Shown here: one piece after another, positions 10,044-41,676 of the stretch
Layout: every line of letters starts with the position of its first letter
Numbering within the stretch: the first letter of the stretch is position 1
Translations under genes and position numbers: made by a program
Notes under the pieces: generated by a model
The model's database searches: none
Seen by the model: only the letters and a program-made list of their open reading frames with translations
Told to the model about the DNA's origin: nothing
NCBI RefSeq assembly: GCF_029952525.1
Contig: NZ_JASAOF010000002.1
Location: 186,001 to 250,000 of the forward strand
Direction: 5' to 3'
DNA from: Saccharopolyspora ipomoeae
GTDB taxonomy: Bacteria > Actinomycetota > Actinomycetes > Mycobacteriales > Pseudonocardiaceae
DNA length: 64,000 nt

Positions 10044-10721
10044 GTGACCACAGCGAAGCCGGACGACATCGGCCAGGAGACCCCGGTCGTGGACGCCATC
10101 CGCGCGGCCATCACCAGCGGGGACTTCGCGCCGAACCAGCGGCTGGTGGAGGCCGAGCTCTCCGAGCAGTTCGGCGCCAGCCGGGCCGCGGTGCGCAACG
10201 CGCTGGTGCAGCTGACCACCGAGGGCCTGGTGGAGCGCATCCAGAACCGGGGTGCGCGGGTCCGGGCGGTGTCGCTGCAGGAGGCCATCGAGATCACCGA
10301 GGTCCGGATGGTCGTCGAGGGGCTGTGCGCCGCGCGCGCGGCGCAGCGCGCCACCGAGGACGAGCACGCCGAGCTGCGCGAGATCGGCGAGCAGATGCGC
10401 CAGGCGGTCTCCTCCGGTGACGTGCTCGGCTACTCCGAGATCAACAAGCGGCTGCACGCCCTGATCCTGCGGATCAGCGGCCAGGAGATCGCCGCCGACG
10501 TCCTCGGCAGGCTGCGCGGCCAGAACGTCCGCCACCAGTTCCGCCTGGCCATGCACCCCGGCCGCCCCTCGGTGTCGCTGCCGCAGCACCTGGCCATCAT
10601 CGAGGCCATCTGCGCGGGTGACGCCGACGCCGCCGAGGCCGCCATGCGCACCCACCTCGGCAGCGTCATCGAAGCACTCCCCGAAGTCGACAAAACCCAA
10701 TCCCGCTTCAACGGGCTCTGA
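10044..10721 (+). CDS. GntR-family (FCD) transcriptional regulator
   Basis: A 225-residue regulator. The winged helix spans residues 10-75 (LSEQFGASRAAVRNALVQL, VERIQNRGARVR). The FCD domain includes the metal-site-like segments EINKRLHALILRI and QHLAIIEAI. The start is GTG, with GGGGTAGG upstream. The 25-bp palindrome across its promoter suggests that it represses itself. No partner operon is adjacent, because the 3' side is filled by repeat structures; it may also act on the hydrolase upstream or on distant genes. Confidence 0.88.
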   Translation: MTTAKPDDIGQETPVVDAIRAAITSGDFAPNQRLVEAELSEQFGASRAAVRNALVQLTTEGLVERIQNRGARVRAVSLQEAIEITEVRMVVEGLCAARAAQRATEDEHAELREIGEQMRQAVSSGDVLGYSEINKRLHALILRISGQEIAADVLGRLRGQNVRHQFRLAMHPGRPSVSLPQHLAIIEAICAGDADAAEAAMRTHLGSVIEALPEVDKTQSRFNGL

Positions 10722-10753
10722 GATTCGGGGTGGTGGTGTGCTCGGCGCGCCAA

Positions 10754-11463
10754 GGGACGGTTTTTCCTCGAATCGGCGCCCATGATCAATGTTCGTTTTG
10801 CCCGGACGGTTTGGACTAAGGATACGTTTCAAAAGGAACGCGACCAAGGCGACCCAAGCTTCAGTAAACGCGATCCACTACGGGTACGTTTCGCAAGGCA
10901 GTGGCAATTTCTTCTGAAATTGGCGGACCGCACAACGCGAGGAGAACCACGAAACGAAGCCAATTTCTGGAGAAATTGCCACTCCGCACGCAAGCAGCTC
11001 GACCCCGCGAAGCGATCCTGAAGAACCCCGTGGGGGTGGTGCAGTTTTCATGAAAACTGTCAGACCCCTCGGGGTCTGTCTGTGGGGTGGACTCCAGGGC
11101 CATCGAGGCGGTTGAGCTGGGGTTTTGTGGTTCCGTCTTGTGGGTGGTGGGACAGTTTTCATGAAAACTTTCCCACCCCTCCGGGGTGCCTTGGGAGCGC
11201 TTCGCGGGGTGCTTGGGGTAGGTGTGGAGGGGCAATTTCGTCCGAAATTGGCTTCTTTTCGTGGTTTCCTCGCGTTGTGTGGTCTGCCAATTTCAGACGA
11301 AATTTCCCCTGCCTTGCGAAACGTATCCGTAGTGGGTCGCGTTTACCAAAGCTTGGGTCGTCTTGGTCGCGTTCCTTTCGAAACGTACGCGTAGTGGGTC
11401 GCGTTTACCGAAGCTTGGGTCGTCTTGGTTGCGTTCCTTTTGAAACGTACCCTAAAACCGTCC
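10754..11463. repeat. palindromic intergenic element, copy 1, split by an insertion
   Basis: The left part (10754-10818) matches the other three copies in this window: GGGACGGTTTTTCCTCGAAT, then the conserved loop with CCATGATCAATG and a TTTTGCCCGGAC segment. The right arm is broken: GGTTTGGACTA ends at 10818, and AAAACCGTCC, complementary to the left arm, resumes at 11454-11463. The bases between, 10819-11452, are a separate foldback element. Joining the flanks restores a hairpin similar to copy 2. It lies between the GntR stop and the cupin stop and fills most of an otherwise gene-free 777-bp interval. Confidence 0.7.
10819..11452. mobile_element. MITE-like foldback element of 634 bp flanked by TA
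   Basis: Two imperfect inverted arms of about 245 and 300 bp face each other around 11066-11149. The left end GGATACGTTTCAAAAGGAAC matches the reverse complement of the right end, GGGTACGTTTCAAAAGGAAC. A TA dinucleotide flanks both sides (10817-10818, 11453-11454), as expected for a TA-targeting transposon. The right arm carries the terminal 62-bp unit twice (11328-11389 and 11390-11452). Each arm also holds small self-complementary blocks: CAGTTTTCATGAAAACTG (11042-11059, near-copy at 11153), and CAATTTC/GAAATTG hairpins at about 10908, 10964, 11234 and 11289. No transposase and no convincing gene is present. Confidence 0.65.
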
Positions 11464-11498: not shown

Positions 11499-12080
11499 TC
11501 ACGGCAGTGAGGGCGGCGTGGCCGAGGGGGTGCGCCACTGGTGGTCCGGGAGGAAGCGAACGTCGTAGCGCTCGCCGGCGGTGCCGAACCTGTGCGGCTC
11601 GGGGACGACCGGTTCCGCGGGCAGGCCGGGTTCGTCGGTGGGGGTGCCCAGGTTCTCGAAGAAGCGCTCGAACGTGCCGCTCGGTCCGGCCGCGACGCCG
11701 ACGATGCGGCTGTGGTGGCGCTCGATCCGGTAGGCGTGCGGGCAGTTCTTCGGGACGAACCCGAAATCGCCCGAGGTGAGCAGCTTCTCGTGCTGCTCGC
11801 CGCCGATCTCCTCGACGAACAGCCGGATCGCGCCGTCGGTGACGAAGAAGACCTCGTAGGTGTCGGGGTGGGAATGCGCGGGGATGATGTCGCCGCGCGG
11901 GCCCTCGCAGGTGAAGAAGTTGAACGTGTTCTCGGTCTGCTCACCACCGGCGTAGATCGTGATCAGGTCCCCGAACAGGTGCGCGCGGTCGCCCTGCCCC
12001 TTCTCGATGAAGTAGGGGACCCCCGGCTCCGGCGGGATCTGCGAACGGTTCCGATAGGGCGTGGCGAACTCGATGGTCAT
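11499..12080 (-). CDS. cupin-domain quercetin 2,3-dioxygenase-like protein
   Basis: A 193-residue cupin. The metal-binding motif is seen as PAHSHPDTYEVFFVTDGAI followed by GDFGFVPKNCPHAYRI. The sequence resembles the bicupin quercetin 2,3-dioxygenases (QdoI type) but spans about one cupin plus a tail, so the true substrate is uncertain. It is divergent from a MarR gene 72 nt away, which probably controls it. Its 3' end abuts the repeat region. Confidence 0.8.
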   Translation of the reverse strand: MTIEFATPYRNRSQIPPEPGVPYFIEKGQGDRAHLFGDLITIYAGGEQTENTFNFFTCEGPRGDIIPAHSHPDTYEVFFVTDGAIRLFVEEIGGEQHEKLLTSGDFGFVPKNCPHAYRIERHHSRIVGVAAGPSGTFERFFENLGTPTDEPGLPAEPVVPEPHRFGTAGERYDVRFLPDHQWRTPSATPPSLP

Positions 12081-25516: not shown

Positions 25517-25613
25517 CGCCCAGCCTCCCCAGCGCGCCGCGACGGCCGCCACAGCTCCCGGGGTAGCCTCCTGCAGCTCTTCGGGGGTGCGCAATCCGCC
25601 GTGTGTTGAGCCC

Positions 25614-25686
25614 GGGGACAGTTTTAGCCAGAATCACCCATGATCAATGTCCGTTTTGCCCGGACAGTTATGGCTAAAACTGCCCC
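25614..25686. repeat. palindromic intergenic element, copy 2
   Basis: GGGGACAGTTTTAGCCA (25614-25630) pairs with TGGCTAAAACTGCCCC (25671-25686), with one unpaired A. The loop carries CACCCATGATCAATGTCCG and TTTTGCCCGGAC, shared with the other copies. Relative to copies 3 and 4, five stem positions differ and all five keep pairing. It begins 7 nt after the aminotransferase stop codon. Confidence 0.8.
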
Positions 25687-33030: not shown

Positions 33031-33105
33031 GGGGGACGGTTTTTCCTCGAATCACCCATGATCAAAGTCCCTTTTGTCCGGTCAATTCGAGGAAAAACCG
33101 CCCCC
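33031..33105. repeat. palindromic intergenic element, copy 3
   Basis: GGGGACGGTTTTTCCTCGA and its complement ending at 33105 make a stem of about 21 bp with one mismatch. The loop carries CACCCATGATCAAAGTCC and TTTTGTCCGG. It begins 9 nt after the stop of the molybdoenzyme gene (minus strand) and lies within the 254-bp gap before the monooxygenase operon. I see no other element in that gap. Confidence 0.85.
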
Positions 33106-41499: not shown

Positions 41500-41556
41500 C
41501 CCCGTAGCCACCCTCTGACCCCGTTGCGTCGGTTCCGCGGAGCGCGTGCGTCACCA

Positions 41557-41630
41557 GGGGACGGTTTTTCCTCGAATTGACCGGACATTTCGGACATTGA
41601 TCATGGGTGATTCGAGGAAAAACCGTCCCC
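41557..41630. repeat. palindromic intergenic element, copy 4 (perfect 21-bp stem)
   Basis: GGGGACGGTTTTTCCTCGA begins at 41557, and the exact 21-bp complement ends at 41630. The 32-nt loop is the reverse complement of the loop of copies 2 and 3 (GGACATTGATCATGGGTG). It lies in the 177-bp gap between the convergent cyclase and pseudouridine synthase genes and may end transcription from either side. Confidence 0.88.
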
Positions 41631-41676
41631 TACGCAGCTGCGCGCGCGACGGGACCCGGCACCCACCACGTCGTCG

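Follow-up and report, generated by a model that had tools for sequence, protein, structure and literature searches.

A tetranucleotide tag, GTAG or CGTC, at one end is a feature of REP sequences. REPINs are defined as hairpin-forming doublets with compensatory changes, and RAYTs are their proposed movers (PMC3116915, available part of the text). REP sequences are targeted by the insertion sequences ISPsy8, ISRm22, and IS1397; ISPsy8 generates a 3-base repeat upon insertion, and ISRm22 inserts at the axis of palindromy (PMC1525189, available part). FB, Galileo, and Tetris carry variable internal tandem repeats in long inverted ends, and Tetris is described, in the available sections of the source, as gene-free and with its transposase not found (PMC4079207).

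The locus compared here with these systems lies in a stretch of 64,000 nucleotides (the window), which is C22:186001-250000 of the 6.63-Mb draft genome (47 contigs) of Saccharopolyspora ipomoeae (G000). Between a plus-strand GntR/FCD regulator gene (10044-10721) and a minus-strand ORF ending at 11499, the window contains a 633-bp foldback element with consensus end GGRTACG, and TAA abuts the element on both sides (10817-10819 and 11453-11455). The features of this copy (W) and the uninterrupted small palindromes in the window are as follows, in window positions.

10754-10819, no strand: left part of the interrupted small palindromic repeat, TAA at its end; same family at 40 other loci in 1.2 Mb
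10820-11452, no strand: foldback element, ends GGATACG and CGTACCC
10820-10881, plus strand: left 62-bp unit, one copy
10905-10922, plus strand: box N1, CAATTTCTTCTGAAATTG
10961-10978, plus strand: box N2, complementary to N1 and separated from it by 38 nt
11042-11059, no strand: box P1, CAGTTTTCATGAAAACTG
11153-11170, no strand: box P2, CAGTTTTCATGAAAACTT
11233-11250, minus strand: box N3
11288-11305, minus strand: box N4, complementary to N3
11329-11452, minus strand: right 62-bp units, two tandem copies
11453-11463, no strand: right part of the small palindrome, TAAAACCGTCC, second TAA at its start
25611-25685, no strand: uninterrupted small palindrome (BLAST, C22:211611-211685)
33032-33088, no strand: uninterrupted small palindrome (BLAST, C22:219032-219088)
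41552-41631, no strand: uninterrupted small palindrome (BLAST, C22:227552-227631)

The inverted arms, like ends, right tandem 62-bp unit, and palindromic 18-bp blocks described in the sequence-only reading of this DNA are all present. The window copy has 129-nt arms that pair at 89% complementarity and 80-nt arms that pair at 91%, and the two right 62-bp units are 89% alike. That reading had placed a 634-bp foldback at 10819-11452; the foldback stands, and the GGRTACG ends shift its left bound by one base. Boxes N1 to N4 have the form CAATTTC-N4-GAAATTG, with a final T in the N4 box of the window copy; the N-box pairs are 92% complementary across 25 nt, and P1 and P2 are two CAGTTTTCATGAAAACT boxes. 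The single-stranded DNA fold of the element reaches -258 kcal/mol compared to -105 (sd 4.5) for 20 dinucleotide shuffles. The ORFs of 124 and 142 aa that lie within the element or overlap it matched no Pfam family at E 0.001, which supports the claim that the element holds no transposase and is non-autonomous. No match to the element was present in the phage and plasmid collections, and its four Rfam matches (E 0.028-0.88) all fall far under the curated cut-offs.

A palindromic repeat of ≈80 bp supplies both flanks of the element, one part on each side; the BLAST match of this repeat extends over 10750-10819 and is broken by the element. This small palindrome occurs at 41 loci, including the window copy, in 1.2 Mb (C22:1-660000 and C11:1-540000), and palindromes were found at all three places (25.6, 33.0, and 41.6 kb) whose hairpins had been assigned to the family of the rejoined flanks. 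Empty sites with a single TA had been named as something to look for; paralogous ones exist, with unbroken target sequence and a single TAA (e.g., L020, L023, L025, and L028), and a clean orthologous one was not found. In four other species (G002, G003, G005, and G016), the orthologous region contains neither palindrome nor element and holds other DNA instead. For L057, no usable synteny was present within the two stretches examined. A 288-aa minus-strand ORF, which we take from its motifs to resemble an alpha/beta hydrolase, lies at the position of the element between the GntR gene and the next gene in G005 and G002 (L132 942-1808 and L133 936-1802).

Of 41 junctions taken from 23 copies, 14 fall within the small palindrome at a 1% threshold (0.4 expected), set as a score against the small palindrome above that of 99% of 2209 random intergenic 45-mers; the other 27 junctions score below it. 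Leaving out L068 and L070, whose sites are already counted, gives 14 of 37 junctions, and L003, L005, L068, and L070 contribute none of the 14. In a test of the 16 copies readable at both ends, with L070 left out, the two flanks of a copy are more alike than those of different copies (p 0.019), and W, L062, and L069 stand out individually. Clear matching 3-bp duplications are present in 3 of the 16 copies readable at both ends (TAA in W and L062, CTA in L003); other copies have decayed ends or a single readable side. The TA seen on each side of the window element is contained in the duplicated flank, and the duplication itself reads best as TAA. Several other element sites contain TA. The former assignment to a TA-targeting type is not supported; the best-resolved duplications have three bases (TAA, CTA), which fits the symmetry of the ends better than TA.

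The draft genome of S. ipomoeae contains about 7-8 element copies at nine copy loci. The full core is present in five copies (W and L002-L005), L009 and L026 are partial, and L013 and L018 are cut by contig ends and may be one copy. The end of G000:C17 and the start of C42 break inside element copies, and the draft assembly may miscount the element. Saccharopolyspora flava DSM 44771 (G006) carries the element at 18 copy loci, and the core is complete in 16 of these. Used as a DNA query against 22 genus genomes, the element gave, among the matches listed, long ones in these two species only and short ones in G003 and G008, where the single G008 match spans the N3-N4 region; the 62-bp unit, again among the matches listed, had no match in the 20 other genus genomes (2 of 22 positive). 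Seven of 390 family genomes had any element match, with long ones confined to the same two. An exact search with a 20-base unit sequence against one genome for each of 84,980 species, a set that may omit the window's own genome, returned 17 stretches, all in S. flava DSM 44771. The end pattern (23 bases, ≤3 mismatches) matched 23 times in G000 and 90 times in G006, and all 113 matches fall within known element copies; G003, G008, and a reversed control gave 0 matches. Searching the genome and its relatives for the same ends, as the sequence-only reading had suggested, thus recovered further copies in S. ipomoeae and S. flava, and second copies of the ends exist. With these second copies, and with the element missing from the orthologous region of G002, G003, G005, and G016, the outcome that would have refuted that reading did not occur.

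Full copies have the order units, N1, N2, P1, P2, N3, N4, units, with 1 to 7 tandem 62-bp units per arm; in G006:C14, five successive units share one 23-base start. Four sites are common to the two species, with both flanks matching at 90-94% (W/L054, L003/L070, L005/L068, and L009/L071), which implies that these insertions predate the species split. The shared loci are 4 of 9 in S. ipomoeae and 4 of 18 in S. flava, and the other 14 S. flava copies have no counterpart among the nine copy loci of S. ipomoeae. Unit number differs between shared copies: two compared to three at W/L054, where the outermost L054 unit lacks its end; one and two compared to four and three at L003/L070; and at most two per arm compared to five and four at L005/L068. 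L054 also lacks the flanking palindrome and, in the other arm, the outer end. At the site of the partial copy L009, L071 1264-1562 (G006:C7:112.3 kb) is an inside-out element with central units and box pairs outside.

The full-core copies of S. ipomoeae match the window copy at 86-94% identity in the best orientation, and the arms of the window copy match each other at 84%. Since these copies match the window copy better than, or about as well as, its own two arms match each other, the arms of the ancestral element had already diverged. The 21 copy cores are 82-96% alike and the species are mixed in the core tree, which implies that amplification began before the species split. Given the four shared sites and this range of core likeness compared to 91% for the flanks of the two species, recent movement is not demonstrated.

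Boxes vary less than spacers among the 21 aligned cores. Variable A/T columns amount to 7 of 74 in boxes compared to 61 of 107 in spacers, and A/T single-copy changes to 3 of 1553 box cells compared to 30 of 2241 spacer cells. For G/C columns the difference is weaker (8 of 32 compared to 100 of 221; p 0.035), and G/C single-copy changes show no clear box-spacer difference (p 0.26). The orthologous copies W and L054 differ in 2 of 106 box columns and 39 of 337 spacer columns.

The 18-bp self-complementary blocks had been noted before; that they are conserved and form covarying doublets common to other repeats of the genus had been missed. The loci used contain 110 box pairs at 50-64 bp; requiring complementarity at 14 or more of the 18 positions leaves 108, which give 107 distinct hairpins. 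Mean complementarity without the filter is 15.9 of 18, compared to 14.4 (maximum 14.8) with shuffled partners. In 48 of the 107 hairpins, 14 of 23 stem pairs have two-sided changes, and the two-sided change cells number 124 compared to 38.9 in shuffles (0 of 500 shuffles as high); these 48 were hand-picked for diversity and include orthologous copies, and the box search pattern limits variation, so that the events are not independent. Shifting the partner lowers every covariation measure. The long arms within type A alone give only slight covariation: RNAalifold on the 21 type A cores assigns a covariation term of only -0.78 kcal/mol, with two-sided changes in 7 of 146 pairs. We make no claim of strand specificity from the wobble pairs (152 G-T compared to 11 A-C cells in 107 hairpins); these cells come mostly from a few anciently fixed positions, and rare wobble pairs do not lean toward a G-T excess.

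A covariance model built from the 48 hairpins also detects solitary hairpins in the S. ipomoeae genome, including small palindromes and P-box pairs, and the target repeat and the element therefore appear to share one box format. Solitary short CGATTTC-type box hairpins found by the model lie at L221 13108, L205 3185, L224 9961, and similar places. The P palindrome AGTTTTCATGAAAACT, which has GC-rich arms (L147-L161), occurs in 194 exact copies in S. ipomoeae, 259 in S. flava, and 45 in G003, and in none of the other 19 genus genomes (reversed control 0). CAATTTC-N4-GAAATTG is present in 17 and 48 copies in the two element-bearing genomes, in up to 207 (G010) elsewhere, and in 0 copies in 8 genus genomes. 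In other Saccharopolyspora species, CAATTTC-type palindrome pairs of different make stand 24-38 bp apart (L166, L168, and L175).

Elements of similar plan and other sequence occur elsewhere in the genus. L171, one of the CAATTTC-N4-GAAATTG sites in G013, lies in a foldback with box spacings of 56, 218, and 56 bp (56, 272, and 55 in the window copy). Its arms of 114 nt are 93% complementary, and its tandem 31/62-bp units are unrelated in sequence. As a query against the 22 genus genomes, L171 gave alignments in 6, with 42 in G001, 54 in G008, 35 in G010, 12 in G011, 14 in G013, and one marginal alignment in G020, these counts taking in both strands and the loci being fewer; it gave 0 alignments in S. 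ipomoeae and S. flava. Four-box elements of almost unrelated sequence and the same box order are present in G001 (10 of 20 loci examined), G010, G011, and G013, and the 14 loci examined in G008 have box doublets only, one of them with two. Three type B elements (L171 and L258 in G013, L281 in G001) have clear tandem units outside the boxes, and the other nine full G001 elements have at most one copy of an end motif. The plan is thus common to these elements in box order and doublets, but only in part in the tandem ends. Tentatively, these repeats may form a superfamily in which one 18-bp box format (≈CRRTTTY-N4-RAAAYYG) is used singly, as REPIN-like doublets, and as foldbacks with end units; its plan would persist across species despite an almost complete turnover of sequence, and it might be spread by an enzyme other than a RAYT.

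The type A copies share ends and core at dispersed loci, the repeat interrupted in the window is intact elsewhere, and a 3-bp TAA is duplicated. Terminal inverted repeats and dispersed copies are the marks of a MITE, and arms with variable numbers of tandem units are the mark of a foldback; the element has both. We consider it likely that the element is a non-autonomous foldback-type DNA transposon, i.e., a large MITE, and infer that it was moved by a transposase. This transposase, supplied in trans and probably of the cut-and-paste kind, would recognize the end units, and additional tandem units may be additional binding sites, by analogy to Galileo and Tetris. The element would insert preferentially into REP-like hairpins, in the best cases at the box centre. 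Its internal doublets are REPIN-like hairpins in which compensatory changes preserve the stem, which implies that they are, or once were, required either in folded single-stranded form or as paired sites for binding.

Profile searches for transposases covered DDE_3 (IS630), DDE_Tnp_1, rve, and Y1_Tnp, with IS110, IS256, IS701, ISL3, and DDE_Tnp_4 outside their scope. The S. ipomoeae genome (draft, 98.7% complete) had 0 matches to all four profiles, and S. flava had one to DDE_3, six to DDE_Tnp_1, four to rve, and none to Y1_Tnp. At these 11 S. flava transposase loci, several of which are cut by contig ends, no paired element ends were present; the 13-base end gave single matches with 3 mismatches each in L141, L146, L248, and L249. 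Since no autonomous partner bearing the same ends was found in G000 or G006, the transposase, which would have acted in trans, may now be lost or not recognized; it seems lost from the window's genome, and the copies there are thus probably fossils. The IS630/mariner-type transposase gene bordered by these ends that had been envisaged was likewise not found, as the one DDE_3 match, in S. flava, has no ends nearby. An IS630/mariner-type MITE with a TA target would account for the TA on both sides and at several other sites, but the end symmetry requires the TAA duplication, and together with the DDE_3 result this makes such an origin very improbable.

A composite built by the REP/REPIN route, in which doublets were mobilized as single-strand hairpins by a RAYT (Y1) and stacked in inverted orientation with no transposon of their own, is unlikely. 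Its appeal lies in the inverted box doublets at about 56 bp with a covarying stem, in doublets that occur alone and in arrays in other species, and in P boxes that are mainly intergenic and avoid divergent promoters: when 73 near-matches (≤2 mismatches) in 1.2 Mb were placed with a simple home-made gene finder, 68 fell between genes (36 in convergent, 31 in tandem, and 1 in divergent regions), and convergent regions make up 24% and divergent regions 17% of intergenic bases. However, Y1_Tnp has no match in G000, G006, G003, G008, and G001, although the same search was positive in G004, G007, and G010; no RAYT was thus found in 4 of the 5 doublet-bearing genomes searched (G011 and G013 were outside the search), the fifth, G010, having one match. 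Moreover, the window element as a whole has fixed ends and a 3-bp flank duplication. It is also improbable that the boxes are kept for the host, as sites in transcripts that run through gene 3' ends and form hairpins (terminator, RNase site, or protein site). In its favour are the greater conservation of boxes than spacers, also between the orthologues W and L054, and the orientation of the 21 loci called (10 convergent, 10 tandem, 1 divergent, or 8, 10, and 1 of 19 when L003/L070 and L005/L068 are counted as the same sites; the convergent window copy is outside the count), but the pattern fits an element that must stay recognizable for copying as well. The restriction of the unit sequence to 2 of 22 genus genomes, among the matches listed, and the 14 of 18 S. 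flava copies without an S. ipomoeae counterpart also argue against a host function.

Each piece of the foldback transposon proposed here has a known parallel; for the combination, and for a like plan in sequence-unrelated elements of one genus, we found no description in searches of the open-licence literature, which leaves most subscription papers outside; these searches gave no title about the element. In the MITE review PMC10969869, the words foldback, Actinobacteria, Streptomyces, Saccharopolyspora, and tandem do not occur. The foldbacks with tandem-repeat arms found in the literature are eukaryotic, and a bacterial foldback that contains REPIN-like doublets brings together two repeat classes that have been treated separately. 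With a covarying stem and a like plan in elements of unrelated sequence, the recognizer of the boxes, and whether it acts on DNA or RNA, can be tested directly. The element may also contribute to an explanation of the many palindromes, numbering in the hundreds, in these genomes; RAYT matches are 0 in the three that hold the P palindrome.

BrickBuilt of Porphyromonas gingivalis is likewise a bacterial MITE that holds tandem repeats; in the available part of its description, these are 23-nt repeats in a single array flanked by a leader and a tail, and the inverted ends are small; BrickBuilt is without the tandem units in two long arms of the foldback element (PMC4596501). For insertion into a REP palindrome together with a 3-base repeat, ISPsy8 is a precedent. 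Insertion into REP palindromes is shared with ISPsy8, ISRm22, and IS1397, which, as far as the available text goes, encode a transposase, unlike the element described here (PMC1525189). The long terminal inverted repeats and the variable number of tandem units resemble those of the Drosophila elements FB, Galileo, and Tetris, as covered in the available sections of PMC4079207. In contrast to these foldbacks, the present element is bacterial, is about 0.6-1 kb as a whole compared to Tetris arms of up to 1.7 kb, has a 3-bp rather than an 8-10-bp duplication, and contains box doublets. These doublets resemble REPINs, as defined in the available part of PMC3116915, in having two short inverted palindromes, a fixed spacer length, and compensatory changes, and differ from them in lying within a larger element that has its own ends and its own duplication.
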